Positions 2,396-21,548 of a stretch of 21,548 nucleotides of DNA are shown here, one piece after another. A model generated the notes under the pieces. It ran no database searches. It had not been told where the DNA came from and saw only the letters and a list, made by a program, of their open reading frames with translations. The stretch lies in contig JAJKFJ010020999.1 of NCBI GenBank assembly GCA_027382625.1, positions 1-21,548 of the forward strand, in the 5' to 3' direction. The stretch comes from Tetmemena sp. SeJ-2015 (Eukaryota; Ciliophora; Spirotrichea; Sporadotrichida; Oxytrichidae). The number at the start of each line of letters is the position of its first letter. Position 1 is the stretch's first letter. The translations under genes and the position numbers were made by a program.

Positions 2396-2755
2396 TCAAA
2401 GCTATTGAAAGTGAAGTCGGAAATATAATAATTTTAAAATAGCGGAAAGAACAATCAAAATAGAAATTATAAAGGACAAAGACCAGCTCGTTTAATTCCT
2501 AATTATTTTCTAATCTAACTTAAAGCATTCGTTAAAGTATTTTTCAAATTATATTTTTTGAATTTAAATAAAAATTTTTACTTACTGAAGACTCTTTTAC
2601 TCATAAATCTTTTTGTTGAGATTAGGCTTTACATGCTTGAGAACATAGCCTATAAAGGAAGAATCTATTGAATACTAATGATAAGCCTTTGCATTCAAAA
2701 GTTTTTCAGCAATCTCTGCACTAACAACTCTTTCTTCTTATTTTGTTTTTATAAT
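2396..2755 (-). CDS. Reading frame for a helical and membrane-like protein, partial
   Basis: This minus-strand frame is open for about 120 codons with TAA/TAG as Gln and ends at TGA. The first part reads as a charged helical protein (EERVVSAEIAEKLLNAKAY and onward). The end holds a hydrophobic run around SFIISILIVLSAILKLLY that could be one membrane segment. There is no ATG after the upstream TGA at 2756-2758, so the 5' end probably lies in another exon or segment. The plus-strand frame over the same bases is hydrophobic and Cys-rich and is judged to be its antisense shadow. I do not recognise the family. The AT-rich last third could be chance reading. Confidence 0.35.
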
Positions 2756-2957
2756 TCAGCTTCACAAAATTGCTGCTGTGATCAGAGTCATAACTATATA
2801 TTCATAAAGATAATAAATCCTTGTATATTACAAATATTTATTGGGATAGGAATTCAAAAGATCTATTAAATCTTATGCTCACAGAATTACACTCTCTTAT
2901 AAATAATCATTAAATACAAGAAATTTCAGTATATTTTCAATTATTTCAAAGAAAAAA

Positions 2958-3665
2958 TCATTTAAGAGCAAGGATATATAAATTTTATTATACCATTAAT
3001 AGCATTTAACTCATTTTATTTTAATGAATTTCCTATTTATTGATTAAATTATTCTTAAATTCTTTTTAATTCATAATTTTCAATGATTAGTTTAGATTAA
3101 TGTAAAAAATATTAAAATATCCACTCATCTATAAAGTTTTTTTTATAAATTATATCTTTTTTATTAAAATAATTATTCTTTGGAATTTAAAGAAAATGAT
3201 TTAAAAATACAGGCTAATTCTTGTTATATTTTATCTGAAAAGATATTTAAATTAGTATTTTCTCCTTAATATATAGATAAGGCTACTTTTCTAATCCTAC
3301 TCTAAATTTTAATAAAGAGATTTCCTAGCTTGGAATCTGAAATTGATTGAGCAGCCACCATGCTATCAGCTGTCTCACCTGCTGTCAGTCAGTCACCAAA
3401 GTTTATCTCCACACTCCAATGGGAAAACTGTTGCTCTTAGCTCTCACCCTCATCAAGTCCGAGCGACCTCGCCCATGGTCTTTGATAATCAATCTCCTCC
3501 TTCGGAGTGGTGGAGGTTGGCCTCAAAGGATAGCCAAGTGTAGGCGAGGAGGCTGACGGCGTTTTGGCACTGGTGGGTCGTGCTCCTGTTACAATGAAAT
3601 CTGTTTTTTATAAGCAAGAGTTAGGGATTGAAGAGGAAAATCTTTTTATATTCGAAAGAATACAT
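2958..3665 (-). CDS. Ser/Pro-rich then Gln/Lys-rich protein, interrupted by an 18-bp segment
   Basis: The frame starts at ATG 3665 and is open to TGA 3393 (90 codons). In the same frame it then continues to TGA 2958. The first part is GC-rich and reads as a low-complexity Ser/Thr/Pro region (SAKTPSASSPTLGYP), then a segment with RSLGLDEGESQ. The single internal TGA lies between two copies of GGTGA (minus strand; TCACC at 3375-3379 and 3393-3397), 18 bp apart. Removing one copy plus the spacer deletes the stop and joins INF-GETADSMVAAQSIS in frame, giving about 229 aa. A 15-nt GT-AG excision is also possible. The C-terminal half is AT-rich and less certain. A similar RSLSLDEGENQ reading occurs inside the element at 6506-6900. 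Family not recognised. Confidence 0.5.
3375..3392 (-). other. Candidate 18-bp IES with GGTGA pointers
   Basis: On the minus strand this unit carries the only in-frame TGA of the 2958-3665 gene and is bounded by GGTGA repeats. Its length is a multiple of three, so excision keeps the frame and removes the stop. This is inference from repeats and frame only. Confidence 0.4.
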
Positions 3666-4488
3666 GAACCCTTTGTAGTAAGTGAGATCAGAAGTTTTAA
3701 ATAACCCACTAAAAAACAGTCTCTCCCCATTATAAGCAGAGTAAATCAAAACTATATTTTTTATTTAGTAAGTCACTTATAGAACTGCAAAATTTAAGCT
3801 TTCATAATCAGTAAATACGAACTTCTTAATCTTAAATCAAATTAATTTAATCTGAAATACCTAAGTAGCTAAAGTATTAGAGAACATATGTTAAGATTAT
3901 TTATCTATCATTTTTTTAATTAAAGTTTTATTTATTTATGAAATATAAATGTGAATTATAACCGTTTCCGAAATCAAGCAGAGACTATGTGCCATCCTCG
4001 AATCTTGACTTAAGATGGTTTTTGAATACTTAGATAGAGTCTACTTCGTCATCTACAAAACCTGCTAGGTACTATTGCTTTCTATCAAAATTATCTCTAA
4101 TATACTTGCTCTTGATATTCAAATTATATATCAAAACATGTAATAAACAAAAACTAACTTATTCCCTAAAAAAAATTGTAATTAATAATTAAATTTAAAT
4201 ATGCTAAAGCAAGACAAGTTTATAAAAATATTAAAAGTACCTTAATCTTTTTAAAATATTTATCCTAGGTAGAGCTCTTCCTCTTAAATATATCTATAAT
4301 AAAGATTTAGGGTTAATTTGAATTCATTATTGCCGATTGGTATAACTTAGAAATGACAACTGATTTAGTCCTTGTTCTGTGATTCACTATATATTAATTA
4401 AGATAATATTATATTAATTATTTATATAAATGTCTACTACAACAACAACTACTGTCATAACAACAAGTTAAATCTCTAAAACTAGAAG
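3666..4488. other. AT-rich intergenic stretch
   Basis: AT-rich DNA between divergently oriented reading frames. It has one GC-richer patch around 3955-4090 in which I find no convincing protein. It probably contains the 5' flank of the minus-strand gene that starts at 3665. Confidence 0.3.
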
Positions 4489-4617
4489 ATATCAGCCGAG
4501 GAGATAAATGAATAAGAGAAGAAAGGTATTCCTCCTGATCAACAGATACTCATCTTATCTGCAAAGCTCAAACAGTTACAAAACTATGATTTGACTTACA
4601 TAAGCTGGAAAGCATGA
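4489..4617 (+). CDS. Ubiquitin-like domain fragment
   Basis: One frame reads SAEEINEQEKKGIPPDQQ followed by ILILSAK and LQNYDLTYIS. This matches the middle of the ubiquitin fold: the DTIENVK region, then the diagnostic KEGIPPDQQ, the LIFAGK strand and the DYNI region. Relative to ubiquitin, about five residues are missing before QEKKG and about four to five after the LIF-like strand. The C-terminal strand and Gly-Gly tail are not in frame; a possible continuation (GKHDLHF) lies one frame away after TGA 4615. An ATG at 4430 is in a different frame. Given the scrambled gene later in the window, this may be a subset of MDSs whose partners lie elsewhere. A decayed copy is the alternative. Confidence 0.5.
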
Positions 4618-5304
4618 TCTTCACTTTTCACAAAGAGAACCCTCTGTGCAATATCCAGAACAACCCTGACACTCAATAATCAACAACTCAAATTGATTAA
4701 ATAATAACTATAACACAAACTGCGGCTGTGTTTTTCATGATCTCAAAGCTGATCTATTTAGAGCAGGCTCCCTCGTTAAATTAAAAAGTATATTGTCTTT
4801 AAACTATCTGTAATTTAATATATAGCATAATTCTCTTAGTTCTGCTGACCTTCACCCATGTAATAATATTCATCCTATATTTATTGACATGTTTATTTTT
4901 TTAATACTTAATATTCTATATAAGGAAGCCGTTTTTGCCACTGTATTTTAAATTTAGGAATTAATTCATCTGCTTGCAAGTTTAATCTGAAATCTAGTTT
5001 TAACTAAACTCACCTCAACAAGTGATAAAATATTATTAATAAAAGTGGTTCCCTATAAATATTATATTAATAAATCTGATAGGCAGGATATTCATATCAG
5101 AAATAAAATATGATAATTCATACTCTAGTTATAACAATAAAATAATATAATTAAGCTTATTTTCACGTAATATACATGGTACTTAATTGGATCATTATTT
5201 ATTATAAAATTAAGTCAAATTTGATTTAATCTGAGGTGTTAAAATATCTCAAAATTAAATAAATAATCTAAATTTGTATGAACTTAAAATAATTCAAAAA
5301 ATCC
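4618..5304. other. AT-rich intergenic stretch
   Basis: The first about 150 bases after the ubiquitin-like fragment are moderately GC-rich and may hold its 3' part in another frame. The rest is AT-rich with no supported feature. Confidence 0.3.
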
Positions 5305-6240
5305 TCACATTTTTAATGTGGGACTACTGAGTTAAAAGTTTAGCTTCTCAAGCTAATTATAAGTTAGTTTTAAAATTAACTTCAAAGTCAAATTATATAT
5401 AATTCTGAATGGAAATATGAACAATAAGCAAATGTATAATATTTATATGAGAAGAAAATCAAATAATTGAACAGTTATGATGTTTTGAGTTATCATTTGT
5501 GTACTTATCAAAATTATTGCATTTATTTAATTGTCCTCAGTAATGTGCGCTTCTATCAATGGGGAATTAGGTACTCTGGACTTGTTCATTATACGTTGTA
5601 ATCCTGGCAATGAATTTAAATGCTCGTGACTTATAAAAAGTGCAATGAAAATATATATTTGTTGACTCTCTAGTAACTGGATTCTGTATTGGAGAGCCTT
5701 TGCCTCTTTCCTTCTGGTCTGTATTCCCCTGTCAATTGGAGTCATTGCCTCTTGGTGTTAATGATTAACTTGCCTCTTGTTTAGGATTTCGTTTCTTTAG
5801 TGAGAAAAGCTGATCATGTTATTGACTAGCTTGATCCAATTTATCTTCTACCCTGGAATTTCATCTTCAAATATCATTCTGGGCATCCCTTCAAAATTGA
5901 CTCCATTGCTCTTTACATTTGACACAATAATTATCAAGAATAATTGTAAATTATTCATTTGAATTATTGTTTGAATATCGTCTACATTAAGTTTAGAAAC
6001 ATTGCTGCCAGTAATGAACTAAGTTTGCTTTTGAGTGATGAGTCTTCTGAGAGTGTTGGTTCTCTTTAAATGAGACTAAGAGTCATACTTTTGCTAAGTA
6101 GCTTAGTTAGTGTTGTTAGTTGAGTAGTGAGTCACTTTGTAAATGAATTTCTTAGACTTGGAATGTGAGGAGTCAGATACAAGTTGACTCTAAACCGAAG
6201 ATTAACCGCCTGCTACTGAGGAGTACTGCCTGTGGGACAT
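5305..6240 (-). CDS. 311-aa protein with a GMP-x-M-x-F / W-x-KL module
   Basis: ATG 6240 to TGA 5305 is one uninterrupted frame of 311 codons in which at least a dozen Gln are TAA/TAG. This is strong evidence for the reassigned code, because the standard code breaks it every few tens of codons. The N-terminal ~70 residues are Ser/Gln-rich (MSHRQYSSVAGGQSSVQSQ) and a basic stretch follows. Near the middle is a module reading GVNFEGMPRMIFEDE and then KINWIKLVNNMISF. The same module occurs in the large minus-strand gene ending at 9762 (GPIFVGMPMMNFDE, KITWTKLMNDMVNF), so the two are paralogous there. After it come charged helical stretches (RRKEAKALQYRIQLLESQQ). The last ~70 codons are AT-rich and hydrophobic and might be beyond the true end. 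The family is not recognised. Confidence 0.7.
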
Positions 6241-6505
6241 ACCACCAACATTATAGCTTTAAAATATAATAAAGCTGCTCTCTCCCTTTTACTTAGGATT
6301 TAGTTAGTTGCTCTTGTTGATGGTTTAAATTGTAAGAGATGGCTTGCTAACAGATTTAGAAAATTAAATAAGAAATATTTCTTGATAATAAAGGATGGCT
6401 ACTATTCCTGAGAATTTAAGTGGAAGTATTTAAATACAAGCTTTTTATCACTTTTCTTTATTTGTCTAATTTAAATCTCTTTTATTAAAGTTAACCATTA
6501 AAAAG

Positions 6506-6900
6506 AATGGCTGTTGTCGAGGCTCTCCTACTCTATCTGCATAAAAAACGCAGGTTGATTAAGTTAGATAGGGAACTTGACCTAGCCAGTCTAATGTTTA
6601 CAGCTCTCTATCAGACCCTTTGTCAATTTGCCAACTTAAGGGCAACAGGCGGCTCGACTCTATCACATACCTATTTGAAGGTCTCTCAGCCTTGACGAGG
6701 GTGAGAACTAAAGATGGTCGAAGAGAGTTCAGGGCTGTCCCCCCAGCTGCGAAATGAAAACCTCAATGGCTTGGGAGTTCTATTGACTTGTAGGTGTCGT
6801 GTTAGTCAAATTGATTAGCTCAAGCTCCCGTATTAGCTTGAGCAAACTGCGTTTTTTCTCAGATCGAGTAGGAGAAATTTTGAAGTCGCCATCCTTTATT
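6506..6900. mobile_element. Short inverted-repeat element (MITE-like)
   Basis: The left end (ctcctactctatctg, then aaaaaacgcaggttg) and the reverse complement of the right end (ctcctactcgatctg, then aaaaaacgcagtttg) match closely. The match extends outward to an aa-gatggc block on both sides, giving arms of about 45-60 bp and a unit of about 390 bp. The interior is GC-rich. A 62-codon plus-strand frame (6507-6695, MAVVEALLLYLHKKRR...) spans the left arm and reads plausibly but has no family. In another frame the interior reads RSLSLDEGENQ, resembling part of the 2958-3665 protein. The flanks show no clear target duplication. Confidence 0.6.
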
Positions 6901-7260
6901 TTAATGATTGACATAAGTAAAGAGATTTAAATTAGATAAAGAACTATAAGAGAGCATTAAAAAATTGTATTTAAAATAATATTAGCACTTAAATTCCCAG
7001 TTATATTTGATATTGGAGACCACGTCAGATAAATTTTTAGAAGATCCCTTTCTAATTATGTCTGATTATGGTTAGACATTTTTCTATTGAGGCATTTACA
7101 ACATTTGGCTTATAAGTTTTAGAATATTGTTTTGAATTATTTAAATTTGTTTTTGGAAGAATAAATACTTTAAATAGCAGTTATAGATATGTAATTGTAA
7201 ATAACAAAAGTCAAATATAATTAAGAGTTTTAGTAATTACAATCATATGTTTCTAGTTGA
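6901..7260. other. AT-rich intergenic stretch
   Basis: No supported gene. It lies between the inverted-repeat element and the next plus-strand frame. Confidence 0.3.
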
Positions 7261-7596
7261 ATGCGTGGGAGAATATAGAGATTATATTTCGACCTACTGA
7301 ATAATCTTCATCTTTTGCTTGCTGATCCTAGGTTGTTTTCTAAATAGCGACTTCAAGTCCAAAAGCTTGCGTTTAGAATTGCGCAACTCGTTTAAAGAAT
7401 CTCTTTTTATAAAATAAATAAGTCTTGGGCTATTTTAGATAGATGAAAAATTATTAAGCAGCCTAATTTATGGTTGGTAGGAAAGAGTGTTTGGAGAATT
7501 GGATTAGTTTTAAGAAGCGAGGTTAAAATATATTTATTATTAATTAGAAGAAACCTAGATAAAAGAGTAGGGAAATAAAAAGTATTAATTTATTGA
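7261..7596 (+). CDS. Short helical protein, one internal TGA
   Basis: ATG 7261 opens 61 codons to TGA 7444. They read as a Leu/Gln/Arg-rich helical protein (MRGRIQRLYFDLLNNLHLLL..., then QRLQVQKLAFRIAQLVQRI). The same frame continues after that single TGA for another 49 codons (KIIKQPNLWLVGKSVW...) to TGA 7594. Other genes in the window show the same pattern, with a lone TGA inside a removable segment. Here I found no intron or pointer pair that removes it in frame, so the second half is uncertain. The family is not recognised. Confidence 0.4.
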
Positions 7597-8518
7597 AGGA
7601 TTATTCAAGATAAATCTTAAATTTTTTTCATTACCATTTAAATATCAAAATTACTATTTAAAAAGCTTATTAAACCCATTTATCGCATTACACGAAACCA
7701 AGAGTAGGATTATTCACATATTGTATTTTATTTCTTCTCGCTTTTTCACTTCTTGAATAAATAAGCTTGAAACTTTTGATTTTCCTAAAAAAAATTGATT
7801 TTAAAAAAAAATTATTAAAAAATACTAGATAGACTTTGCAAATAAACATCAAATACGAATAAGAGATAATTTATATTTATCACAATTAAGATTTACTAAA
7901 CATTACTTATAAGAATTACTTATTATTATAATTATCATTTATTATTTTATAAAAAAGTTGCTAGTATTTGTTGATAGCATTATTTGAGGCTTTGCTTGAT
8001 GAATGAATTAATGCGGCATCTCAATTTATTAAATTTGTGAATTAGGATGAATATCGATATTCTTAAGTGATTTATAATTGATCCTAAGGTTTAAATCTGC
8101 TTCAAATTTTAGATTAGAGTTTAATTTGCTTTATTATTTGACTTTAGTTTAAGCTTTGTTGTAACTATATTGCTAAAACTAATTTAATATTTTAAAAGGA
8201 ATAATATTTGTTTGAGTTCTTACCTTTGTTATACTCTTTTTATAAACTAAATATTTTTCACTCTTAATTAAGGAACTTATTAAACTGTAATATTTATTTA
8301 ATAACTGCAATAAGCAATAAATTAAACTATTTTATCCTGAGAATGAAGTCTTTGGCCTTCTTGAAGAGTAACAAATTCCAGTCAACATATAATAATTAAA
8401 CTTAATACTAACCTTATTCATTTAAAACAAGCAAAATCAAAAATTAAGCTAAAAATAAAGCATTAATTTAAAATCTTTCTGATAAATAAAGTAAATAAAT
8501 ATAATTTGTAATTTTATA
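7597..8518. other. AT-rich stretch, no gene seen
   Basis: Nearly 1 kb of very AT-rich DNA without a protein-like frame or clear repeat. Confidence 0.35.
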
Positions 8519-8623
8519 TAGTAAAGGTTAAGGAGACTTTATAAAACAGAAGAATAAGCAACATTATCGCGAAAAAGTTTCCGATATATTTTTTCATCTT
8601 TGATATTCTACTTGGACCTTGCA

Positions 8624-8995
8624 ATGACCATTAAGATCTCCATATACCCCAGCTACATTTTGAAAGCTGAGGGTTACCTCCTGCACATAGCTCAAGGTAA
8701 AGCATAGGTAGTCTACGCCATCGAGAAGGAAGCTTTGAGAAGAGATGGAGGCTCTCCATCTACCTCTTGGCGACTCGTAGCATCCTGGGTTCGTTTAGGC
8801 TGTTGTAAAACACTTCAAAAGATTTCAGAGAAACCGAAATCAATAACTAACGATATGAATAGTTATAGACCTTAAAGATATTCTAATCATTAAAAATTAT
8901 AATTTTAGATTGCATTCTCTCTCTCAATTCTCTCTCAATCCTTTCTCATAGAAAAAAATACTTTAAATTTTTTTATGTTTCTACAATTTTTATGA
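8624..8995 (+). CDS. 123-aa reading frame around a GC-rich core
   Basis: ATG 8624 to TGA 8993 is 123 codons. The core (8640-8830) is much more GC-rich than its surroundings and reads YILKAEGYLLHIAQGKAQVV, then YAIEKEALRRDGGSPSTSW. The TAG in the core is read as Gln. The frame is also open upstream to about 8519, so the start could be earlier. The minus strand over the core also has open frames (for example PKRTQDATSRQEVDGEPPSL), so strand choice is not secure. No family is recognised. Confidence 0.4.
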
Positions 8996-9761
8996 AAAGT
9001 CTTTGCTGATAATTATTAGTGTTAAAATCTAAGGTTAAGAACTACACCACTTTACTTGGGCAAGCTTAAGGAGACCCATCCTCCTTTACACAATTCCCTA
9101 GCTTAGATAAGGATATCTTAGTAACTATCCGCCTAGTGTTATGTTGAAATAGAGTATAGTTCTTTTAAAGGCAAGTTAATGCTATATATCAAATATCTAT
9201 TGTTATATTTGAGAGTTCATTATTACGACTTCTAAAAATTTTATCTATTTTAAAATTAAATAAGGGAAATTAAAAATCATTTAAAAATAATTATAAACTA
9301 ATAATTCTGTAACATATCTTTTGGTTTAATGTTTTCTGGTGATTATAGATTTCTTCCAAAATATTACTACTTTCCTTTCTTAAGCTTCAAAATAACTAAA
9401 ATAATTTATTAAAGTTAATAAAGCATTAAAAAAATATGAATGAAGTTTAGTTGTAAATAGAGTCTTAATAAATCATTTAATTTGAGCAATTCTTAATTTA
9501 AATATCTTCGTTGAAATCCTTTTGCAATAAGTTGTGTTTATTTTATATATCTTTTTGTTTTAATGAAATATATTTTTTAAAGTTTCGATGAAAATTAAAT
9601 TGGAAAATTTTGATAAAAATTTTATTTGGATAGTATCTTAATTAAACATATGAAAGGTTTATTTGTTTATATTAACTTACTCATGAATATCTCTATAAAA
9701 AAGAGCAAATTTTTTTGACATGTTTTGGAATCCTCTTTTATTTATTTTTCATAATTTGACT
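8996..9761. other. AT-rich stretch with a weak plus-strand frame
   Basis: A plus-strand frame at about 9038-9439 is open for 133 codons with TAA/TAG as Gln. It begins RTTPLYLGKLKETHPPLHNS in a GC-richer patch and then becomes AT-rich. It could be a downstream exon of the 8624 gene, but I found no phase-consistent join. Nothing else is supported. Confidence 0.25.
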
Positions 9762-12349
9762 TCACTGGTCTGTATGCAACTACTGAGATATTTGTGTTGC
9801 AAACTGTTTTAAACTATATGAAAATAAAAATTTTATTATAAAAAAGGATTTTAATTTATTTTTCCATAAATAGTGGGGAAGAATAATCATAGTGGTAAGT
9901 ACTTAATTTACCGATATAAGCTAAATTTTATAATTAAATTTTCTTAAATGTATGAATTTCTGATTTATAATATTATTGATTTGAAAGTATTTTGACTAAT
10001 GAATAAATATAATAAATTAATAAAATAAATTGAATGCATATTATACTTTCTTAAGTGACCTATTTCTATTGTGTATTTGTTTATATCCAGATATTTATTA
10101 GGTTTAAATATCTAGTGAGAGTCTGTTCACTCTTGATCTGCTAGTATTAAGACTACCTAGTTAAGTTAAAGGGAGAGGCGAAGGATTAACAGAGATAGGG
10201 GACCTTAGAGTTCTAGCTTCATTTAAGCTTGCCCTAAAATTGAGTGATTACTGCTAGATGACATCTAGATTAAGTAACTTAGCAGGCTTTAACTTGTACA
10301 GTTCGTAGTGTTTGAGCTGCAATAACCTCTGTTGTTGGAGTTTATGCTTTTATTCTTGAAGAAGTTTCTCTCTGACTTTATAAAGTTCTTCTGTTTCTAT
10401 GCTGAAGTTGCTGCTTCTTATGCTGTTTGACTGACTGATTTCAGTTTGCTCTTTCTCGCTCGATTACTCATCAAAAAATGTAAAAATCAAAGCTTACGCT
10501 TTGAAAGTCTCTTGGTTGGCTAATTTCTGAGGGCTTTAGAGTTGATAGAAATCTCTTTTTGATAGATGCTAGCAGGTGGATTGCTTATTTGGTCTTTATT
10601 TTTTGAACTTCCTTGCTGGCTTAATTGCTGTTGGGAGAAAGTGTCTGCATTTCTTTTTTGCATTCTGGTATTCTTCTCAATCCTCAAGTACTCTTCTTTC
10701 AACTTCCTCCTCATGGGAGAGTCTATCAATGGACTATCATTTTTATGGACTACTGATTTTCGCCTAAACAATATCAAACTAAGTATAAATAACTTACGGA
10801 GATAGTATCGGTTTCATTTTCAATGAAGCAGAAAGCCTATGCAAGTAATTACAAATGCAGGATCTTACTTATTGGGCTGCAGTGAACTTTAATTTATCGA
10901 TACTTTCAAAAGTTAGGGAGGCCTTTAGATTATTCTAATCGAAATTTAGTCCCCTCTAAAATCTCTTTAATCTTCATATTAAATTACTTGTGCTGCTGGG
11001 TTGACTTTCCACAAAACTGAGAGCAGAAGCACGAATGGCGCCTGACTTTTAAATCCGTCGAATTTATCAAGTGCCAAGTTCTAAAATCTTCTTGTTCTAG
11101 AACTACTGAAGATTCAGATTTAGTTTCTTTAACTTGCTCTTATAAAAATATACTCTCGTTTTTTAAGGATGATTTTAGGTCTCTGAGACAGAGATTTTGC
11201 TTGTTTGTTAGTGGTTTCATATTTCATATTGATAACTGGAGTAGTCTAGGTCGAAGATTTGAGAGATGAGTTTGCTCCTCCTCTGCTTGGGACTCGATTC
11301 TGGCTTCCTCCTCCTAATATAGCATTGCTGTTAATGCTGTTTCTATTAGAAGCTAATCTTTGGAAAAGAGAAGCATCTGAAATAGTTTTAGCAGGTGGTT
11401 AGCCTTTTAAATCACTTTCAACTTCGAAAATACCTGTCTTAAATCTTTTCTTCAAGGAATTAAATTCATGATTTTTCTTTATTCATTTATAGGCAATTTA
11501 CTTTTATTATTTTTTACAAGTGTATAAGTTTGACAATTTAATTATTTTTAATTAAGCTATTAATTAAGGATAAGTCAAATTTATATTCAAATTTAAGGCT
11601 TAAGAGATATAGCTTGGATATTATTTTTAATCGATAGCAGTTTATTGCAATTATTGTGGTCTAGTGAGATTGATACTTTCCTTTGCCTTTTATTGAAGAT
11701 AGTTATAAGGGATATCAGGGGCATAAAAGTTGACCATATCATTCATAAGTTTAGTCCAGGTTATTTTCTTGGTTTCATCGAAATTCATCATAGGCATGCC
11801 TACAAATATGGGGCCTAATAGCAAAGTTATAATTCTATTATTACCAGTAGCATATAGAGAAGACAAATGCTTGTCAAGAGTTACATTTTTAGCGTTATAT
11901 TTGTCAACTTCCAAAGTCTATAAGATAAATAATGATGATCAGTGAGAGTGTGAATTACCTTGATGAGTTAGTTGTCTTTCTTATGGATGTCGGCAATTTG
12001 CTAAGTGAAAATCCCATCAGGATGAAAAGTGTTTCTAGAATTAATGTCTCGTTAATCTAATGATGCTCTATTATCATTGACTGAGGCTTTGCTGAAAAAG
12101 AAGTTTCCAAATCGCTTCGAAGCGGTCTAGCCAGAATTAGAATTTGGAAATGGAGTTATTTGCGAGCTTTAGAGTAATTAGTTTCTCAATCCAAACTTGG
12201 TTTGAGGATTTATCCCAGAGGGAGGTCTCTCTAAATTAATATTATAAATGAGTGGGAGTGTCTTAAATAAAGATCCCCACTTGCTTAAAGCTCAGTTTCT
12301 TTCCTGATTCCTCCGAGAGTAGTCTTCTTGAGCTTGAAGTGTGCCTCAT
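9762..12349 (-). CDS. 769-aa protein in 8 exons: GMP/W-x-KL module and C-terminal coiled coil
   Basis: Reading minus strand from ATG 12349, exons are 12349-12281, 12228-11959, 11917-11502, 11444-11134, 11105-10988, 10953-10798, 10778-10498 and 10450-9762. The seven introns are 52, 41, 57, 28, 34, 19 and 47 nt. All begin GT, end AG, and preserve phase through 2310 nt; splice sites were chosen by frame, so single boundaries may shift. The N-terminus is basic and Ser-rich (MRHTSSSRRLLSEESGKK). Residues about 113-190 hold the module shared with the 5305-6240 gene (GMP at about 153-155, then ITWTKLMNDMVNFY). Then come low-complexity Ser/Asn-rich linkers and a Cys-containing patch (HSCFCSQFCGK). 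A Leu/Gln/Lys coiled coil lies near 560-600 (EELYKVREKLLQEQKHKLQQ). The AT-rich last ~120 codons are less sure. No named family is recognised; it resembles ciliate cytoskeletal or ciliary coiled-coil proteins only in composition. Confidence 0.65.
10779..10797 (-). other. 19-nt intron
   Basis: The segment begins GTAAGT and ends TTAG on the minus strand. Its removal joins phase-2 exon ends so that CCT is completed and the frame continues into PLILFRRKSVV. Without removal the frames on the two sides do not connect. Confidence 0.55.
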
Positions 12350-13084
12350 TTTAAATATCATAATCTATACATTAATAATATAAATTATTAATTTATTATC
12401 AAGGCTAGATAATGAAATTTTTATGCGAGATATTTTATAAATTGAGCTAGACATATGAGTTATATTGCACTTACTTTATACTCTCTAAAATTATCATTAA
12501 TCTGGCATGAAGTATACATTTTTAAGATGGATAACAAATTCAATTTGAATCAGATAATAAAGAATAAAATATCTTCCATAAATAAAGATATGATATACAG
12601 TATTTATCAATTAATGATTAATTAAGAATTTAAATATACTCTAGCATGTTACTTATGTTAACTGTAAAAATTATTCCCTCAAAAGTTAAAACTTTTTTAA
12701 CTTTTGAAATATCTTTTTTCTTCCGTTAAATCTTTTAATCATTTGAGTTTGTTTTAAATTTCCTAGATATAAGAAAAGTTAATTTGTATTAAGTAGATAA
12801 TTTACTTTAAAATTAAAAGGCTTACATATAATCGATCTGATTAGCTTGTAATTTTAATTAAACAAAAATTTAAGAAATTATAATTGGTTTAATTTCCATT
12901 TTAGAGTTTTATATATATAATCGAAATTTATTAAAATTACTTATAAAAATGAAATTATTAACATTAAAAATATTAAATTAGATAAATATTAATATGAGAT
13001 AAAATTATTCAAGATATATAATTTCATTCTTTAAACATAAAATTATAGTTAAAATGATATTAATTTTATTAATAATTAATAAAA
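12350..13084. other. AT-rich intergenic region between divergent genes
   Basis: The 769-aa gene starts leftwards at 12349 and the next gene starts rightwards at 13085. This 0.7-kb, very AT-rich stretch therefore probably holds both promoters. No specific motif is supported. Confidence 0.35.
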
Positions 13085-13749
13085 ATGATTTTCGGTTTTT
13101 GTAGATCGTTAGAATTTTGTGAGAAATAGTTGCTGTCATTTTCCTTTAAAGAAGGATGATTATTTTTAGTGCTCATAGAATATTTATTAAGGGAATCTAA
13201 GAAACCCGTCAGGATTTAACCTAAGCAACTTCAATATTTAATCCTAAGTAAAGTAGACTTATCGTGTAACATCCTGTCAACAACCTCTCTGAGCTAGGAG
13301 GATTCACCTTCTGCATATTTATTTATAAAAAATCAGAGTATCGCTTTTGAAAACGAAGTTCCAGATAATCAAAATGGTATATTTAGTTACCACAGGAACT
13401 CTGTAGATCACCTTGATAATGCAAAGTTGAGTGATTGTCATTATATTAGAATTTCTTCTGCTGATGCAGGCCAGAAGGGTCGGCTGGAGAACTTTCACAT
13501 TATGTATCAATCAAACGAGAAATATCTTCTCCAGACCACCATAATCAAAACCTGACGTTAAGTAAACAATTTCCAAAAGATGGACTATTATCATTTAATA
13601 TCTCTAGGGTGATAAATGAAACTAGCAAGTGCATTAACTAAAGTACTGTGGACCTTTCTACCCATAGCTAAAACGATTTAGATGTCACTGGTCGTCACTT
13701 TAACTTTATAATTTATTAGATCTCATAGAATATTAATTATAAAGTGTGA
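13085..13749 (+). CDS. 184-aa protein of unknown family, three exons
   Basis: ATG 13085, exons 13085-13118, 13170-13503 and 13563-13749. The introns are 51 and 59 nt, both GT-AG, phases 1 and 2, total 555 nt. The best-supported part is 13300-13550, a GC-richer stretch reading AFENEVPDNQNGIFSYHRNS, then SSADAGQKGRLENFHI. After the second intron comes KQFPKDGLLSFNISRVINE. The alternative first donor at 13102 is also in phase. The antisense frame at 13319-13510 is hydrophobic and is treated as a shadow. The product appears soluble and mixed-charge. I do not recognise it. Confidence 0.55.
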
Positions 13750-14112
13750 ATTATTATGTTTATAAAATAAATGAAATTAATATTTGAAAAGAGGATGCCA
13801 ATTAAATAAAATATAAATTATCAAGTTTCAAGCTGCTGAATTACTGTAGGCCTTACTCATAAATTCTAAGATAATTTAATACCTTTTATTTCATTTAAAA
13901 TTCAATAATAATTATTTTTCTTCTTAGTCATAATTAATCTACAGAGTGTTATTTATTTAACTTTATAAATAATTAATCTTAAGAGGCATAATATTTAACT
14001 AATTTTTAATATAGAATAAAGTCTTGTCTTATTCGAGTCTATGAATTATATTTACATGGAACTATTTAATTAAGTTTCTAGTGATTATAAATAGGGTATT
14101 TAATTTGAATCT
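13750..14112. other. AT-rich intergenic stretch
   Basis: AT-rich spacer between two co-oriented genes. No supported feature. Confidence 0.3.
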
Positions 14113-15039
14113 ATGTATAATAAAATAATAGGAGGTCAGTAGTCCTTAATTTATTGTGCTAAGTTTGAAAGCAGGTTGGATGAAGCTCTGGATTGTATCG
14201 ACTTTTAAGATTTGATCTAGCTTCCTTATTTGAAGTCACTACTACCGGGTAAAGAGTTTGAATAATAAATTATATTATAATTATATTCATACCATAATTA
14301 ATCCAAATTATATTTTTATACACATTCATTTTTAAAAATAGTTTGTTAATCTTATCTTGGTAAACAGAGCAAAAAGATATAATCTATCTTACATTAAAAT
14401 ATAAATAATTTAACTATAGCGATAAAACATAATAAACTCTGGTATTTAAAGTTTTTTAGTAAATGATTTAATAAAAGCAAAGGTTTAACAAGGAAAAATG
14501 ACATAGACTTCTATTACGCCTTAGAAATGGCTTTTATATTTTTAAGAAATATTTGCTTGAGTTTTGTTTTAATTTATTAAAGATAAAATAGAGTTAGACT
14601 GATTCTTCATATTTTTTAAAGCATAAATAAAAAGACTTTATCAGACTAAATTTTGGATTATTTTGAGGTTGAATTTAGAGAGAAATGGATCTCTCAAATG
14701 TAATTAATTATAGTAAACTACATAAGGTGGCTTCAATGTGAATAATAAATAGTGCGAACATAGAGATACATAAGCTGTAATGTCATAGTTCTTATTTCTT
14801 ATGTCGCCTATTTTTACGGCTTTTTAAGTTAGTCATTCCCACCCGAGCTATCTTCGTTAAGGCAGGGAGGGGATCTCGCTATTCACTTTGATAAAGAAAG
14901 GAGGCTCCACATCTGCTCCACCTCTCTTCATAAAGGCGTGATCTACCTTCACTTACCGTCAAAAGGAGTGATTGAGAACGACCAGTCTCAAAGAGTAACT
15001 CTGGAGTAAAAGGATTATTATTCCCTTTGTAGTCTCTGA
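14113..15039 (+). CDS. 300-aa protein of unknown family with a 24-nt intron
   Basis: ATG 14113 to TGA 15037 is one frame broken only by TGA 14464. A 24-nt segment (14459-14482, GTAAAT...GCAAAG) contains that stop, has GT-AG ends and a length divisible by three. Its removal joins LKFFS-LTRKNDIDFYY. The N-terminus reads MYNKIIGGQQSLIYCAKFES and LDEALDCIDFQDLIQLPYLK. The centre is AT-rich. The C-terminal ~60 residues lie in a GC-rich island (14820-15020) and read QGGDLAIHFDKERRLHI, then STSLHKGVIYLHLP. That last part has a beta-repeat feel, but I cannot assign a domain. At least a dozen Gln are TAA/TAG. The long TGA-free run is the main evidence. Confidence 0.55.
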
Positions 15040-15490
15040 GGTCATTAAATTAAAGTGGTCTCTTCATATTTATTAATAAGCATTAATTCATTCACCTAAA
15101 GTAGGTCATGCTAACTAAAAGTAGCAAGATATATTTTATCAGATTAATCTTTCATAATAAATTTTTAAAGACGTCAATCTTATAAATCTTAGAGCTCAGA
15201 TATTTTTATTTTAGCTGGTTCAATGATACTAAATATATTCTTGTTAGATACTTTTTAAATTTATATTAAGAGCAGATAATTATCTCTTATTCTCTTGTAA
15301 TTTAAATTGAATAGTGATGATGGGGCTAAGAATGTGGATTGGTCGCACTTTACATAAAGCCTTAATTTATGTTTTTAATAAAATTTAAGTATATTATGTA
15401 AATTTATTAAACTTCAAAATAAATTTATCAAATTAACTGTTCACAACTAATTAATTAACGCTTGCCAATCTATGATCAAGGAAATTATGA
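15040..15490. other. AT-rich spacer between convergent genes
   Basis: 3' flanks of the 14113-15039 (+) and 15491-17031 (-) genes. No supported feature. Confidence 0.3.
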
Positions 15491-17031
15491 TCACAAAGTT
15501 TCAGTTATAAGGTACTTTGAATCAATACCTCTCTATTTATTTCTTAGAGAGGCAGGCTTAAAACTTTTTGCGGGCAATTGCTTAGCCTCGTTGGTTTATT
15601 ATGCTTAAATATCATTGTATTAGGAATCTACTTGCATTTTGTGTTCTTCATCTGTGTGGGTTTGATTTACTTCAGCTTATTCGATAATGTGGTTAGTTTG
15701 TTGATAGTCATCCACTCTCATGTAAACTATTACTGATTATTGGCATATCACAAGTTAAATTATAATTTAAAGATTACTTATTCTTTTGGAAGTTAAGACC
15801 TCCTGCCTCAATTTAATACAGATCTTCTAACTCCTCATCAACTCCGTTCTTTATTATCTCTGGTTGCTTTCTCTTGCTCTTCAGCATATCTACAAGCAAA
15901 TTCAAACAATTCATCATAGAATTTATGAGCAAATAACTCTCTTCATCAAATAATTAATCCTATATATTTAATCTTAGATAATATATTAATAAATTTAAAA
16001 ATCAAAAGAGAATTGAATAGAATTGCTTTGCTTAATTATTATTTATAGCATCAGACTTGATAATTTTAAGATGATTTTCTTTTTAATCTATTAATATAAA
16101 TAAATTAAAAAATATTAATTTATATTGTATTTAATTCAGCTTTATGAGAGGACTTTATTTTAAAATGAAGATAGTATTATTATAAATATGAGAAACTTAC
16201 TGATTTCAATTGTAGGAGGTGCTACTCTGTGGTAAGTCTCTCCAGAGTACTTCATGGATAGTTGAATGTCCTTCTGCATCTATTTTTGTTTGCTGAGTTG
16301 TTTCTGATCTCTTTTGTTAAGATCAATAATAATAATATATTTTAGAAGATCTTGTTCATTATTTGATTTGGGTGAGTCATTGTCATCTTCATCGGACGAA
16401 GATTCTTAATCTTGAATGAGATTGAGAGTGTCTCTGATGCTAAAGAGTTTGGTAGCCTTTTAAATATGCTTGATAGGTACTTGCTTTTTAGACTGCTCAA
16501 TCTTAGAAAGTTACTCTTTGTTTTACTAGTGAATTTGGTTATTGTAGTTAAAACTTAAATGAAAATTAAAATTAATTTTAATAAATGAGAAGTTGTAATA
16601 TGCTTGTCGATAAATTTTGATGAAGATAGCTGAATATGGGGCTTGTTCAATATCTTATTTAATTTAGTCTGCTCTGCTGCCATTACGATAAGTTCACTAA
16701 GAGATCTTGATGTTTTTGACTCTGAACCAAGAAATTAATCAAATTCACAAAATTATGACCGATTTAACACTCTACACAGGCCTCTCACGTAAAAGGCGCA
16801 AGGATGAAAACTCCTTAGAATCCATGCTTAATTAAATTATCATAATTAAAAAAATACTCTTACTTCAACAATAGCAGATTCGATAATTGAATATTTATTC
16901 TTTTTTTTTAAATTCTCAGCTATATTGGTATACTTGTGTCCATCATTTTTACTACTGGCAGCATAATGCTAGTTTGTTTGTTCGGATTCACTACTTGAAC
17001 TTTCGTAGCCAGCCAACATACTTTTTAACAT
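15491..17031 (-). CDS. 362-aa acidic/Ser-rich protein in 6 exons
   Basis: From ATG 17031 on the minus strand: exons 17031-16864, 16813-16760, 16719-16555, 16525-16201, 15940-15800 and 15726-15491. The introns are 50, 40, 29, 260 and 73 nt, all GT-AG and phase-consistent over 1089 nt. The protein starts MLKSMLAGYESSSSESEQ, has basic patches (ENLKKKNKY) and an acidic Ser cluster (QESSSDEDDNDSPK). A charged helix with KRDQKQLSKQKQMQKDIQL follows, then RKQPEIIKNGVDEELEDLYQ, and it ends in a Gln/Asn-rich tail. Composition suggests a disordered nuclear or RNA-processing protein, but this is a guess. The 260-nt intron is much longer than the others and could hide an eliminated segment. The plus-strand frames opposite it look like membrane proteins but are antisense artefacts. 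Confidence 0.65.
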
Positions 17032-17511
17032 TTCTACAAATTAATTATTTAAATCATTATTTGCAAATCTATACAATTAATCTTCTATTTTTTATACATT
17101 AAATAAGGAATTGTTTTATTCTATAATTTTGTTTTAACTTTTTCTTTTACTGTGTTTATCAAATAAGATTGGTTACAAAACAATATAGGATTAGTGAGAT
17201 TTTAGAAGTATTATTCAATTAAAATATATAATCCATAATAAGGCTCTTCAAAAATTAGCTAAATGGAATCAATTTTTTTTAAAATAAATAAATAAATGAA
17301 TCCAGTAATTTATTTATAATCAACAATTTAATCCTTCAATTATATGAGAGTAAAACAGAGTTAAATACTAAATTAAATAATGACTTATAATTATAGATTT
17401 TGAATCTCTATTAATTAAGGAAGGAATTGGTGATTGGGAGTGAGTAAATAAATAGAGTTATTAAGGAATTTGATAATTTGAATAATTACATATTTATCAT
17501 AGCAAGAAAAA
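17032..17511. promoter_or_regulatory. Shared upstream region of two divergent genes
   Basis: This 480-bp, very AT-rich interval separates the start of the 362-aa gene (leftwards) from the REEP-family gene (rightwards), so both promoters should lie here. No specific element could be identified. The sequence just before ATG 17512 is A-rich (agcaagaaaa). Confidence 0.35.
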
Positions 17512-18210
17512 ATGAGCTTAATTAGAAAGATTTCCGAGTCGACAGGCGTCCCCCAGCAGAAAGTTCTCCAGTACATTCTCGTACTCCTCGTACTCTTCGT
17601 TGTTTTCGGAGTTGGCAGTTCAATTATCACTAATTTGATTGGCGTTGCATACCCTTGCTTCATGTCATTCTACGCACTCGAGTCAGACGGCGGAGATGAC
17701 GACAAACAGTGGCTCACCTACTGGGTGGTATTCGGCATCTTCACCATTGCTGACCAATTCGCTGGATTCATCCTCTCCTTCATCCCCTTCTACTACGTCC
17801 TCAAGGTGGCAGTCCTCATCTGGTTGTTCCACCCCTCCACCAAGGGAGCCATCTGGGTCTACGAGAACTACATTGAGCCCTTCTGGAAACAGAACAAGCA
17901 ATATGTTGAGCAACTTGAAAAGGGAGTCGAGAGAGCAGTCCATGACAATCACTCCCTACATTCTTTCAATATATGCTTACTGATGTTTAAATGAGTGAAT
18001 GTTGACTTGATCAAGAGCAAGGTGAACACCGGCTTCAAGAACGAATGAGCATCATGAAGATGCGAGGGCACCCTTCCTGCAGCATCAGATGAGAAAGAAT
18101 AGTGAGTCGACTGGCAGAGGTATGCAGCAGCAGAATGATGCAACCAACTCCTTCCTGGCGGCAAAAGGAGGAGCAGTCCACCACCTGTGCACCATACCTA
18201 ATAATAATTA
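17512..18210 (+). CDS. REEP/DP1/Yop1/HVA22-family ER membrane-shaping protein, interrupted by IESs
   Basis: The family makes tubular endoplasmic reticulum by hairpin insertion. Residues 18-45 form a hydrophobic hairpin. YPCFMSFYALES (47-58) is the family signature, followed by DDDKQWLTYWVVFG, a second hydrophobic pair, and KVAVLIWLFHPSTKGAIWVY ahead of an amphipathic helix (EQLEKGVERAVHD). Up to residue 145 the DNA is GC-rich and uses CAA/CAG for Gln. An in-frame TGA at 17992 follows, yet the frame resumes as LIKSKVNTGF. Removing 17943-18002 (TGAC repeats) joins AVHD-LIKSKV. Removing 18042-18062 (CGA repeats) and 18090-18102 (TGAG repeats) gives a continuous Gly/Ser/Gln-rich tail (NEGTLPAASDESTGRG, QQQNDATNSFLAAKGGAV). 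The gene end is not fixed; GC-rich coding character fades at about 18210. A plain stop at 18046 after KNE is the conservative alternative. Confidence 0.88.
17943..18002 (+). other. Candidate 60-bp IES, TGAC pointers
   Basis: TGAC occurs at 17943-17946 and 18003-18006. The 60-bp unit is AT-rich, contains the in-frame TGA at 17992, and its removal keeps the frame within the amphipathic helix. A 78-nt GT-AG intron (17938-18015) is a competing reading but would delete the conserved-looking AVHDLIK junction. Confidence 0.6.
18042..18062 (+). other. Candidate 21-bp IES, CGA pointers
   Basis: CGA occurs at 18042-18044 and 18063-18065. The 21-bp unit contains two in-frame TGAs, and excision joins KNE-GTLPAA in frame. 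A 3-bp pointer is weak evidence by itself. Confidence 0.4.
18090..18102 (+). other. Candidate 13-bp IES, TGAG pointers
   Basis: TGAG occurs at 18090-18093 and 18103-18106. Removing 13 bp both deletes an in-frame TGA and corrects a frame change, giving SDESTGRGMQQQ. It has no GT-AG ends, so it is not an intron. Confidence 0.4.
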
Positions 18211-18479
18211 TCACTCAAACAACAAGCAATCATTCATTTCAATTTCTATTTATCTTTTTGATATTTGGGAAAGATTTGAAGTATAATAGTTGTTTTCAGT
18301 TGTTTGTGTATTCTTTCGCTAAGTATTACTCACAAACTACGTCGTCATCACTTCGTTCTCTGATTTAAGATATATTCTTCCGCCTATTCCTTATATTGTT
18401 CACACATTTATCATTTCAATTAAAGTTATCTTTTTTTGGGAAGCAAGTACATTCCAGACATCAATATACGACCCTTGAT
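18211..18479. other. Spacer between the REEP-family gene and the antiporter segments
   Basis: AT-rich. The REEP-gene frame happens to stay open to TGA 18474, but the composition is no longer coding-like. It probably holds the 3' end of that gene and eliminated DNA. Confidence 0.35.
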
Positions 18480-19535
18480 AAAGAGTATTTCGATCCCTGA
18501 GTATAATATTCTCCAGTAGCAGCATTTCCAACTAAAGCAGGTGGATATATTCGTAGCTGCACACTTTCATTTAATGCATTGACTACTGTTGAGGCGACAG
18601 TAATCACAATAGTTTCATATTTTGTATTTGGGATGCCATTGATTGGATTGGAATAAGTCCTTCAGTGATGGTTCCAGGTTTAATGGCTCTAAGTGAAATT
18701 GACTTTGTTTGCTTTGATAGCAGCAGGCACATTCGAGGATATATTCTGTATAATCCTGTTTGCAATAGCGAAGAGAGTCCTTTTGAACTCAGCTTCCTAA
18801 GAATTGAATGAGGGTACAGCTCGCATAATGTTCGATATCTTGATTCTTGTGGGTGAGTTGGCTATTGCTCTTCTTATTGGAGTGGCTGTGGGATGTCTAG
18901 GCTTCATCTTCAATAAAATTGCAATCATTTTCAATGTCAACAAATTGCTAAATATAGTATCATTTTCATCCAAAATTATTATAAATAAATTATCTAACTA
19001 CAAAAAAGAAAAAAATATAATTTAATTCACATAATTTTAATATCATCTTAATTTTAAGTAATTTTATCCGTTGAATCTTCTCCTACAGAAAAAAAACTTT
19101 AGAGCATGAATGAAAACAAATAAATATAATTAATACGAGAACTCTGATTAATTATAAAGATTAATCCATTATATATATTAGAGAAGTGTTGGAGCAACTT
19201 TGCTACTTAGTTAGATAAATGGGTAGTCAATTTTGAAGGGGATAGCTTGCATATTACATTTACTATATTCAGAGCTTTTGTGGTTTATTTTGCATCAGGA
19301 ATTCCAGGAAAGTATGAACAATAGGAAAGACTATTTATGTCATTCAATTAAAATGGAAAAGCTACAGTGCAAGCAGCTCTTGCTTTTAAATCAAGCCAAG
19401 CAACTCGGTCTGCCATAATAATACATAGAGTACATAATTTGTGAAAGTCCAGACGACTGCTATATTCTCAATCATTATTTGTGCTCCTATCATTATTCTT
19501 TTCATCTCAACTTTTGGGCCAAGATATCTTGAAAA
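18480..19535 (+). CDS. Even-numbered MDS set of a scrambled SLC9B/NHA-type Na+/H+ antiporter
   Basis: Eleven segments, pointers included: E1 18480-18518, E2 18539-18557, E3 18583-18637, E4 18652-18698, E5 18719-18923, E6 19183-19255, E7 19265-19344, E8 19358-19384, E9 19389-19433, E10 19446-19491, E11 19501-19535. Recognisable family pieces: E3 TVEATVITIVSYFVFGMP; E4 ISPSVMVPGLMALSE; E5 AAGTFEDIFCIILFAIA and ILILVGELAIALLIGVAVG; E6 SVGATLLLSQINGQSILKG; E7 RAFVVYFASGIPGKYEQQ and RLFMS; E8 ATVQAALA; E10 VQTTAIFSIIICAPI; E11 STFGPRYLE. Read straight through, this set is frameshifted at nearly every border and skips conserved parts, all of which lie in the odd set. The family's DD pair appears as Glu-Asp (about residues 196-197). 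E2 and E1 rest on 4-bp pointers and are the least certain. Confidence 0.85.
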
Positions 19536-19653
19536 TTCTTTTAGACATAATTTTATTCAGAACTGATTGATGAAATGAATAATATTATTTACTCTATCTT
19601 TACAGATTTTCTATAAAATACACAGTAAATATCGAAACCAACAGCACATTATA

Positions 19654-21132
19654 ATGGAGCATGACGACAACAGTAATCAACAACAATTCTCTAGTTTTGA
19701 ATACGACATAAATGACAACTTGGAAATATTGGTACCTGTGATTATAAGTTATTAATCAATAATTAAATAAATACGATTTCAGCTTCAGTTGAATACACAT
19801 TTTTGCAATAGCTGATTGCGTTCTTGATCGTAATAGGAATGGCTACTATTGGATACTTTTTAGTAAGATTTATTGGAGGCTATCGCATAAAAGGAAGCAA
19901 GTCTAAAAAATATTCGATCACTCCTCTGATTGGGATGATATTCATGCAATATATACAAAGTGAAAAACAACCTTCTTTTTAATTTAAATAGAGAAACTGA
20001 TTTTATATTCAATACTATTTGGATTTATTGGGAGGAATTTGTTTGGATCTCCAGTATATAGATTAAACTTTTATTTCTGCTAGTGAGAGGAGGCATGTAG
20101 GTTTCTTTTGAAGGGGTCAGGATTTTTAGTAGCAATAATGTCGGTAATACCTTCTACTGTTAGAATAAAACCTATGCCTTTTATTGTGTGCATATGCATG
20201 AGCCTTATCTTATCAGCAATAAGAACGCACAATAAATTCGATAAGTGAAAAAGGTTATGGCAAAAATAAAGGAATACTTAGTGCTTTTAAAGCAGCACTC
20301 ACTCATCTTAAACAAATATAATGACCATGAAAAAGCAAAAAAAAAATAATAACTTATTCATAACTTTAATTTCAAATTTATGAAACCTTTTTTGCATTAT
20401 AATTTATGTTTTAACTATAAGAAAACTTGTCATTAATCTTGAATAATTTAGTGAAAAGATGAAATAAAATTGCAGATGAGAATACTAGATTACTAAGCAA
20501 ATCTGTTTGGTCAATTTCATGTGCTGTTGCTTTCGTCATCATTTCAGAGGAGGTGGGTCTCCCAGATGCAAAGTAAACTTTATAATTAAGCGATAAGTAG
20601 AAATACATTAAACTTGTATGTTTTATGTTGCGACCCTGTTCTTTGGATATGCTAGCTATAGAGTTTGGGGAAAAGATAAGCCAAATAAATAGCTCGCTAA
20701 TTTGTGGCTCCTTATTCAACCAATTTTCTTTGGAAGTGTCAAAGCTAATTAAAATGGTTGCATATTGATAGGAGGGATATTCAGATACTATTAATGTCAT
20801 TGACATGGGTGCCCAAAGCTAATATAGTCTTGCTGCTGTCATACTTAATCAAGCTAAATTTGTTATAATAGAGTACGGTATCATAGTCCAGATGTTCTTA
20901 ATACAAATCCTATCGGAGCCATATTCATCTCTTAGGTAATTAAATTATTGAAAAGTAGACAGAGCTACCTGAAACAGAAGATAGACTACTTAATTATCTA
21001 ATGTACAACCCCACAGCTCAAGTTAAAAAAGCATCACGAATAATTAATTAATAAATTAAAATTTTTAAATTAAATATTAAAAATATTTTTAAGTGTTTAT
21101 ATAGAATTAATTTTTTCGTAATTAATTTTTGA
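19654..21132 (+). CDS. Odd-numbered MDS set (with ATG) of the scrambled SLC9B/NHA-type antiporter
   Basis: Segments with pointers: O1 19654-19960, O2 20048-20102, O3 20129-20161, O4 20174-20223, O5 20242-20297, O6a 20463-20580, O6b 20609-20739, O7 20758-20785, O8 20794-20821, O9 20828-20854, O10 20868-20892, O11 20908-20931, O12 20948-21132. Pieces: O1 N-terminus MEHDDNSNQQQ and the first membrane segment, then TPLIGMIF; O2 IKLLFLLVRGGMQV; O4 PFIVCICMSLILSAIS; O5 KGYGKNKGI; O6 YRVWGKDKPNKQLANLWLLI then QPIFFGSV; O7 ILIGGIFR (Arg about 363); O8 LTWVPKA; O11 PIGAIFIS; O12 hydrophilic tail. Alternating with the even set gives about 510 codons, standard length for the family, with roughly a dozen membrane segments. 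The product should exchange Na+ (or Li+/K+) for H+ across a membrane. The last ~25 codons before TGA 21130 are AT-rich and the true end may be earlier. Confidence 0.85.
19748..19782 (+). other. 35-nt intron in the antiporter first segment
   Basis: GTTATT...TTTCAG. It splits a codon after the first base; removal joins EILVPVIIT-SVEYTFLQQL and puts the first membrane segment in frame with ATG 19654. Confidence 0.65.
20574..20608 (+). other. Internal IES of the odd set, TAAACTT pointers
   Basis: TAAACTT occurs at 20574-20580 and 20609-20615. Removing 35 bp joins EEVGLPDAKQ-TCMFYVATLF in frame; without it the frame is off by two. The alternative GT-AG excisions tested here give the wrong phase. 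Confidence 0.6.
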
Positions 21133-21517
21133 TATATTAAAACTTATAAATAACACTTCATGATAAAGCTTTGTTATGAAATTTGAGTATACATTTTAGA
21201 TTAAATATTTTAAGTCAAAATTTGAATAATTTGTGAGTATAATTACTTTCCTTTTGGATTTAAAATTGAATTACGATGCTTAATATCAAATTTATATATT
21301 TTATAAATAATGAGGAATATCTTCAAAAGGATGTTAAGTAATAAATCTGATATTTATTTCCAATAATCTCTATATTCTTATTTATTTATCTCTAAATAAA
21401 ATGCTTAAAATTTTTCCTCTTAAATAATATTATGATATTGGAATTAAATGTCAAAAATTATGTGAGTACAAGTCTCTTATTAATATCATCTTTAATATAT
21501 CAATCAATATTATTCAT
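21133..21517. other. AT-rich 3' flank
   Basis: Very AT-rich DNA after the last antiporter segment. No supported gene or repeat. Confidence 0.3.
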
Positions 21518-21548
21518 CGAAAACACGAGTGCGAAAACACGAGTGCGA
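21518..21548. repeat. 14-bp tandem repeat at the window end
   Basis: The unit cgaaaacacgagtg occurs at 21518-21531 and 21532-21545, followed by cga. It begins abruptly in AT-rich DNA and runs to the last base, so the sequence may break inside a satellite. It also contains acgagtgcg, which resembles a sequencing barcode I recall, so an artefact is possible. Confidence 0.7.

Follow-up and report, generated by a model that had tools for sequence, protein, structure and literature searches.

A putative SLC9B/NHA-type antiporter gene scrambled in 23 pieces over neighboring odd and even sets

The window analyzed here is the entire contig C2078 (21,548 nucleotides) of a 146-Mb assembly. Towards its end lie two neighboring stretches of antiporter-like coding fragments, each unreadable alone. 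The locus raises the question of whether two damaged genes stand side by side or the alternate pieces of a single gene. Read with ciliate codon usage, in which TAA and TAG are taken as glutamine (Q), the plus-strand locus at 18439 to about 21180 has the features of a typical odd/even scrambled SLC9B/NHA-type antiporter gene, divided into 23 pieces in two neighboring sets. The best explanation, to which we give a probability of about 0.95, is a likely germline locus of a hypotrich-type ciliate whose 23 pieces would be joined odd-even-odd at 22 repeats. At the sequence level this reading is supported by the two sets, the piece order, the repeats, the open frame obtained in that order from a second contig (C4107), and the agreement with a relative that is not scrambled.

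The map is as follows. The coordinates of MDSs in the even set include the pointers at both ends.

18439-19535, plus strand: even set, from relative-guided alignment; 12 of 22 junctions pointer-blind, the others by repeat and relative
18439-18495, plus strand: MDS 2
18510-18572, plus strand: MDS 4
18583-18637, plus strand: MDS 6
18652-18698, plus strand: MDS 8
18710 (or 18719)-18923, plus strand: MDS 10
19183-19255, plus strand: MDS 12
19265-19344, plus strand: MDS 14
19358-19384, plus strand: MDS 16
19389-19433, plus strand: MDS 18
19446-19491, plus strand: MDS 20
19501-19535, plus strand: MDS 22
19654-about 21180, plus strand: odd set, from relative-guided alignment, repeats and relatives
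19654-19902, plus strand: MDS 1, open in C4107 from the ATG at 19654
19913-20056, plus strand: MDS 3, with one IES inside
20073-20161, plus strand: MDS 5
20174-20223, plus strand: MDS 7
20242-20287 (or 20297), plus strand: MDS 9
20463-20739, plus strand: MDS 11, with one IES inside
20758-20785, plus strand: MDS 13
20794-20821, plus strand: MDS 15
20828-20854, plus strand: MDS 17
20868-20892, plus strand: MDS 19
20908-20931, plus strand: MDS 21
from 20948, plus strand: MDS 23; read in the frame of C4107, it reaches its first TGA at about 21179, though the true 3' end may differ
18924-19182, plus strand: IES of 259 bases, the longest between even pieces; faces odd MDS 11
20298-20462, plus strand: IES of 165 bases, the longest between odd pieces; faces even MDS 10
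19938-20011, plus strand: ordinary IES in MDS 3, 74 bases, 3-base repeat ATA
20574-20623, plus strand: ordinary IES in MDS 11, 50 bases, TA repeat, exact fit to relatives
Pointers 1-6, in order: GGAAGCAAGT, TTCGATC, TCTCCAGTA, ATTT, CTACTGTT, ATGCC
Pointers 7-12, in order: AATAAG, TAAGTGAAA, AGCAGCA (or TGCTTT), AATAAAATTGCA, GAAGTGT, TTGCATATT
Pointers 13-18, in order: ATATTCAGA, ATGTCATT, AAAGCTA, TCTTGCT, AATCAAGC, ATAGAGTAC
Pointers 19-22, in order: AGTCCAGA, TCCTATC, TTCATCTC, TTGAAAA
Even 18439-18448 and odd 19893-19902, plus strand: pointer 1, GGAAGCAAGT, restoring a stretch aligned to CLPNIRIQPILRSV of P0001
Even 18489-18495 and odd 19913-19919, plus strand: pointer 2, TTCGATC; the odd copy in C4107 is TTTGATC, leaving GATC
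Even 18510-18518 and odd 20048-20056, plus strand: pointer 3, TCTCCAGTA, used from odd to even
Even 18569-18572 and odd 20073-20076, plus strand: pointer 4, ATTT, found by the pointer-blind alignment
Even 18633-18637 and odd 20174-20178, plus strand: pointer 6, ATGCC in the window; the odd copy in C4107 is ATGCT

The 22 pointers follow the identical order in both sets and are 4-12 bases long (mean 7.8, median 8). Nineteen of the 21 IESs between the pieces measure 4-20 bases. For the IES inside MDS 11, a 35-base version flanked by TAAACTT is possible; it leaves 5 extra residues, and the 50-base TA version fits the four aligned relatives better.

The sequence-only reading had proposed 22 junctions, each at a direct repeat said to occur once per set, and had judged so many ordered repeats very unlikely by chance. 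Five of the 22 repeats occur several times in a set: in 18480-19560 and 19654-21160, respectively, AAAG is found 8 and 13 times, AGGT 2 and 4, GTAGC 2 and 1, AGCAGCA 2 and 1, and AAAGCTA 1 and 2. The two sets share 265 7-mers; 100 shuffles gave 194 on average and never more than 241. Shared words thus exceed chance, yet most of them are chance, and repeats alone prove little. Because of both observations, protein relatives were used for the map. The nearest of 153 proteins, with the earlier join as query, were P0001 (EukProt entry 403376950) and two Stylonychia lemnae proteins of the same family, P0002 and P0003, annotated as mitochondrial sodium hydrogen exchanger NHA2 and 9B2, respectively, and listed on contigs of 1893 and 1672 bases. 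P0001, presumably from Oxytricha trifallax, is known here from the protein alone.

P0001 was aligned to the DNA without knowledge of the pointers, jumps being allowed anywhere at a fixed cost, and three jump costs were used. This alignment is a stronger test than repeat counts. It scored 1377, compared with 590-617 for eight shuffles and 597-619 for six stretches taken elsewhere in the window; the reverse complement reached 659. When only forward steps were allowed, the score fell to 744, a 1.85-fold difference; the chance floor of about 600 was measured for the free-jump alignment alone. Summed over the three costs, 12 of the 22 listed pointers coincide exactly with junctions of this alignment: ATTT, CTACTGTT, AATAAG, TAAGTGAAA, GAAGTGT, ATGTCATT, AAAGCTA, ATAGAGTAC, and AGTCCAGA at cost 12, TCTTGCT at cost 9, and TCCTATC and TTCATCTC at cost 7. 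The alignment chooses TGCTTT at junction 9 and ATTG near junction 6.

Fourteen odd/even switches of the blind alignment lie between pieces of at least 5 residues. Eleven of them fall on repeats of at least 4 bases, whereas random pairs do so in 2.6% of cases and 616 shifted partners in 2.3%. At the remaining three, 2, 1, and 1 bases are shared: one switch belongs to a spurious tail segment, and in two the alignment overran the pointer. The ten further pointers, most of them next to pieces whose shortness defeats blind alignment, were assigned manually with the help of repeats and relatives. Since the repeats were known at that step, the agreement of all 22 junctions with repeats is partly by construction.

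Eighteen of the junctions first proposed, from CTACTGTT to TTGAAAA, are retained. The first four, AAAG, TCTCCAGTA used from even to odd, AGGT, and GTAGC, are wrong. Their use leaves four places in the first third of the protein without residues that all four aligned relatives have, and these residues are restored by GGAAGCAAGT (18439/19893) in place of AAAG, TTCGATC (18489/19913), TCTCCAGTA in the opposite direction (18510/20048), and ATTT (18569/20073). The even set starts at 18439 rather than at 18480. At two of the 18 retained junctions another repeat fits better, TGCTTT rather than AGCAGCA in comparison with the relative, and ATTGATTG rather than ATGCC in C4107. The earlier path was also described as keeping one frame. 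It changes frame inside 20463-20732, the site of an ordinary IES, and carries 5 extra residues at 20574-20623; both ordinary IESs are absent from that map.

Joined with the letters of C4107, the 23 pieces form one frame of 555 codons, even though among pieces 1 to 22 there are 16 whose length is not a multiple of three. An earlier form of the join, cut at 480 residues, is identical to P0001 at 296 of 430 positions with no internal gap (69%). BLAST of the final join against P0001 gives 66.3% identity over 457 residues with 2 gaps, and this alignment runs into the divergent tail. The identity of the join to P0002 and P0003 is 43-45%. In a profile of 59 homologues (P0002-P0060), the final join scores 368 bits and P0001 385, whereas no single frame of either half exceeds 29.3 bits. 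The earlier join (window letters, with a supposed intron and the 35-base IES taken out) scores 305 bits. Two same-strand sets with alternate pieces of one NHA-like antiporter, the core of the earlier proposal, are thus borne out alike by the blind alignment, the open frame of C4107, and the profile scores.

The joined protein shows full-length homology to SLC9B proteins. Solved SLC9B2 chains match it at E values of 1.6e-45 and 1.2e-40, and their scores rise from 143 to 159 and from 127 to 143 bits on passing from the earlier to the corrected join. These chains, of mammalian SLC9B2/NHA2 (7p1i and 7b4l), cover positions 87-479 and 87-473 when the join is taken in a 509-residue form. A Pfam search with this 509-residue form returned no family at E values up to 1, and the earlier join likewise lacks PF00999; PF00999 matches P0001-P0003 at 7e-20 to 2e-23. 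The HMMER prefilters may have dropped PF00999 for the joins.

SLC9B/NHA antiporters bind their ion through a pair of acidic residues, DD. The motif of the scrambled gene is GTFEDI, with TFEDI where mammalian SLC9B2/NHA2 has SFDDI, so that both residues of the pair are acidic. DD is present in 104 of 121 aligned sequences and ED in three, among them the scrambled gene and P0001. ED is also read in the related copies on C1872 and C1057, and EN in those on C1753 and C1124. In a tree, the scrambled gene is sister to P0001 (100/100), and it groups with none of the linear copies described below. Judged from its sequence, the product of the joined gene would be an ion/proton antiporter.

A search of the same genome with P0001 gave 53 matches, C2078 and C4107 included. 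Twelve related copies on eight other contigs were compared: one each on C1872, C1057, C1880, and C3126, and two each on C1753, C1124, C3845, and C2934; C4844 was left out of this comparison. The ratio of free-jump to forward-only scores is 1.03 to 1.22 for these copies, compared with 1.85 at the scrambled locus, so the 12 copies are linear. Among all genes of the genome, the linear ones on C1872 and C1057 come closest to P0002. On C1753, C1124, C3845, and C2934 the two genes stand head to tail, with identities within the pairs of 0.80, 0.77, 0.63, and 0.58, respectively. The first copies of C1753 and C1124 are 0.92 identical and those of C3845 and C2934 are 0.88 identical; the members of each couple may be haplotypes or duplicates. 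Given this alikeness, the genome contains at least two distinct tandem pairs.

How might the scrambled arrangement have arisen? The gene may have been duplicated in tandem, after which its two copies decayed in a complementary fashion. This origin is preferred because linear tandem pairs of the family occur in the genome; the antiporter locus by itself does not demonstrate it. A 2022 eLife study of scrambled genomes predicts that each IES derives from a duplicated copy of the MDS opposite it (PMC9797194). Over 20 of the 21 pairs (one 4-base IES was left out), MDSs and facing IESs show no overall similarity, with Stouffer z values of -0.17 for global alignment and, for local alignment, -0.86 in the window and 0.75 in C4107. 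Single pairs deviate in both directions: pair 7 has a z of 3.04 in C4107, pair 14 of 2.6 and 2.8, and pair 22 of about -2. The IESs are short, and beside most pointers no extended similarity was seen. These observations favor some other origin, which is a tenable possibility but not the one we favor. Against it stand the tandem pairs of this family elsewhere in the genome and a weak positive correlation between MDS and IES lengths (rho 0.49, p 0.02 for 21 pairs; once the two long pairs are omitted, 0.32 with p 0.19). In addition, candidate local relics are found at junction 9, where TGCTTT and AGCAGCA lie close together in both copies, and at junction 6 in C4107 (pair 7). According to PMC9797194, the length correlation is also only weak in Oxytricha and Tetmemena, which fits old duplicates.

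Contig C4107 appears to represent the other haplotype of the locus. Two fetched stretches of it match 949-10824 and 12815-21548 of the window with small gaps at 88 to 99.6%. The agreement is uneven along the window, with 88-94% at 12815-15168, 97.7% at 15276-21548, and 99.6% at 3889-10824. Over 3.25 kb at the locus, the two contigs differ at 28 positions. The 1725 bases that are kept hold 11 of the differences and the 779 that are removed hold 16 (Fisher p 0.003, counted with 19748-19782 placed in MDS 1); one lies outside the sets. The three single-base indels are all in kept DNA:

19748-19749, plus strand: one A fewer in the window than in C4107; breaks the frame of MDS 1
20113, plus strand: one G more in the window than in C4107; disrupts the reading frame of MDS 5
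after 20991, plus strand: alters the reading of the C-terminal tail, which is open in both contigs

Owing to two of these indels, the window contig itself has no open frame through the join, whereas C4107 is open. The frame-breaking indels may be assembly errors or may mark a broken allele. An intron at 19748-19782, considered as an alternative for the first, was rejected, as C4107 is open there.

The pointer letters differ between the contigs at two of the 22 junctions, those of TTCGATC and ATGCC. One account holds that the two germline copies shift their junctions, so that each contig would join at a different repeat where these two are no longer shared. When C4107 is joined at the shared ATTGATTG just downstream of ATGCT, it regains a proline that does not vary when the earlier join and four relatives are aligned, and without the two shifted pointers the C4107 join scores 357 bits in the 59-homologue profile. 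The conserved residues are kept by both joints, as SISITPL in both contigs and as GMPFIV and GMPLIV. We regard such a shift as unlikely. Should the two contigs be true homologues from a single individual, the letters of a pointer would be free to drift, with the joint set by template RNA. The frame-broken C2078 copy could, if so, persist in the germline, carried by its working partner.

Two tandem antiporter pseudogenes that decayed in different places, never undergo joining, and are complementary only by coincidence would also leave two halves unreadable alone. Other family members do stand in tandem, and the window contig does carry frame-breaking indels. Nevertheless, the complementary path through C4107 is one open frame with a core free of gaps relative to P0001, the blind switches sit on repeats in 11 of 14 cases, and the contigs differ less in kept than in removed pieces. 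Exact repeats at the handover points would also not be expected from independent decay. Chance complementation of two pseudogenes is thus very improbable. That the exact path of the sequence-only reading is real in the window haplotype is harder still to credit: its step from AGGT to GTAGC via 18539-18553 happens to hold the frame past the frameshift at 20113, but it drops residues at four places relative to all four relatives, cuts into even MDS 4, which is required whole, and scores 305 bits compared with 368 for the corrected join.

The joined odd-even-odd gene is accordingly the reading carried forward, and the DNA of the window is likely germline (micronuclear). IES-interrupted DNA is also seen in the neighboring TB2/DP1/HVA22 (REEP-type) gene at 17512-18048 (PF03134, E 4.6e-30), which has a 60-base insert flanked by TGAC repeats at 17943 and 18003; without the insert, its frame runs to a TGA. 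The GC content at 17512-18048 is the maximum of the contig, 0.46. At the other side of the locus, about 21425-21548 is a sharp-edged dispersed repeat of about 124 bases, whose end consists of 14-base units in tandem, CGAAAACACGAGTG. Two such units in a row have 122 matches in the genome; 40 of 228 candidates were scored, and among the listed places 35 lie no more than 8 bases from the first base of a contig and face outward, the others being inside contigs. The repeat may mark the border of a mobile element or a satellite where the assembly breaks. A telomere was rejected for it, given the copies inside contigs. Telomere-like CCCCAAAA repeats begin exactly at position 1 of C298, C586, C672, C739, C770, C1030, C1301, C4311, and C4966.

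During formation of the somatic nucleus, the cell would join the odd and even pieces alternately at the 22 short direct repeats, and the DNA between the pieces would be removed. In Oxytricha, joining is guided by template RNA from the old macronucleus, and the same guidance would apply to the antiporter locus. As in the odd/even scrambled genes of Oxytricha and Tetmemena, alternate MDSs lie in two clusters with direct-repeat pointers; the gene is a different one, and so is the species as far as the data show. A search for a macronuclear or cDNA sequence of the species returned none, the best protein being 61% identical (BLAST, earlier join as query). The pointer order, 1 to 22 followed by 1 to 22, corresponds to a "repeat word" in the terms of PMC5940158, and scrambled pointers generally exceed ordinary ones in length (PMC9797194). 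The fragmentation, earlier called extreme, is surpassed in print: Oxytricha has loci with more than 50 scrambled pieces and chromosomes with hundreds (PMC5940158). Among the 12 papers listed of 39 in a literature search, none paired "scrambled gene" with an antiporter or exchanger term, which is not proof of absence in print.

The scrambled antiporter is another example of an arrangement known from many genes of related ciliates, and no new mechanism was seen in it. It illustrates how a map drawn from repeats alone can err, as 4 of 22 junctions did here. Its value lies in the family. A scrambled locus in two versions and linear tandem pairs have been mapped within one genome, so the model of duplication and decay becomes testable on a single family, for which this antiporter locus offers a family-wide test case.
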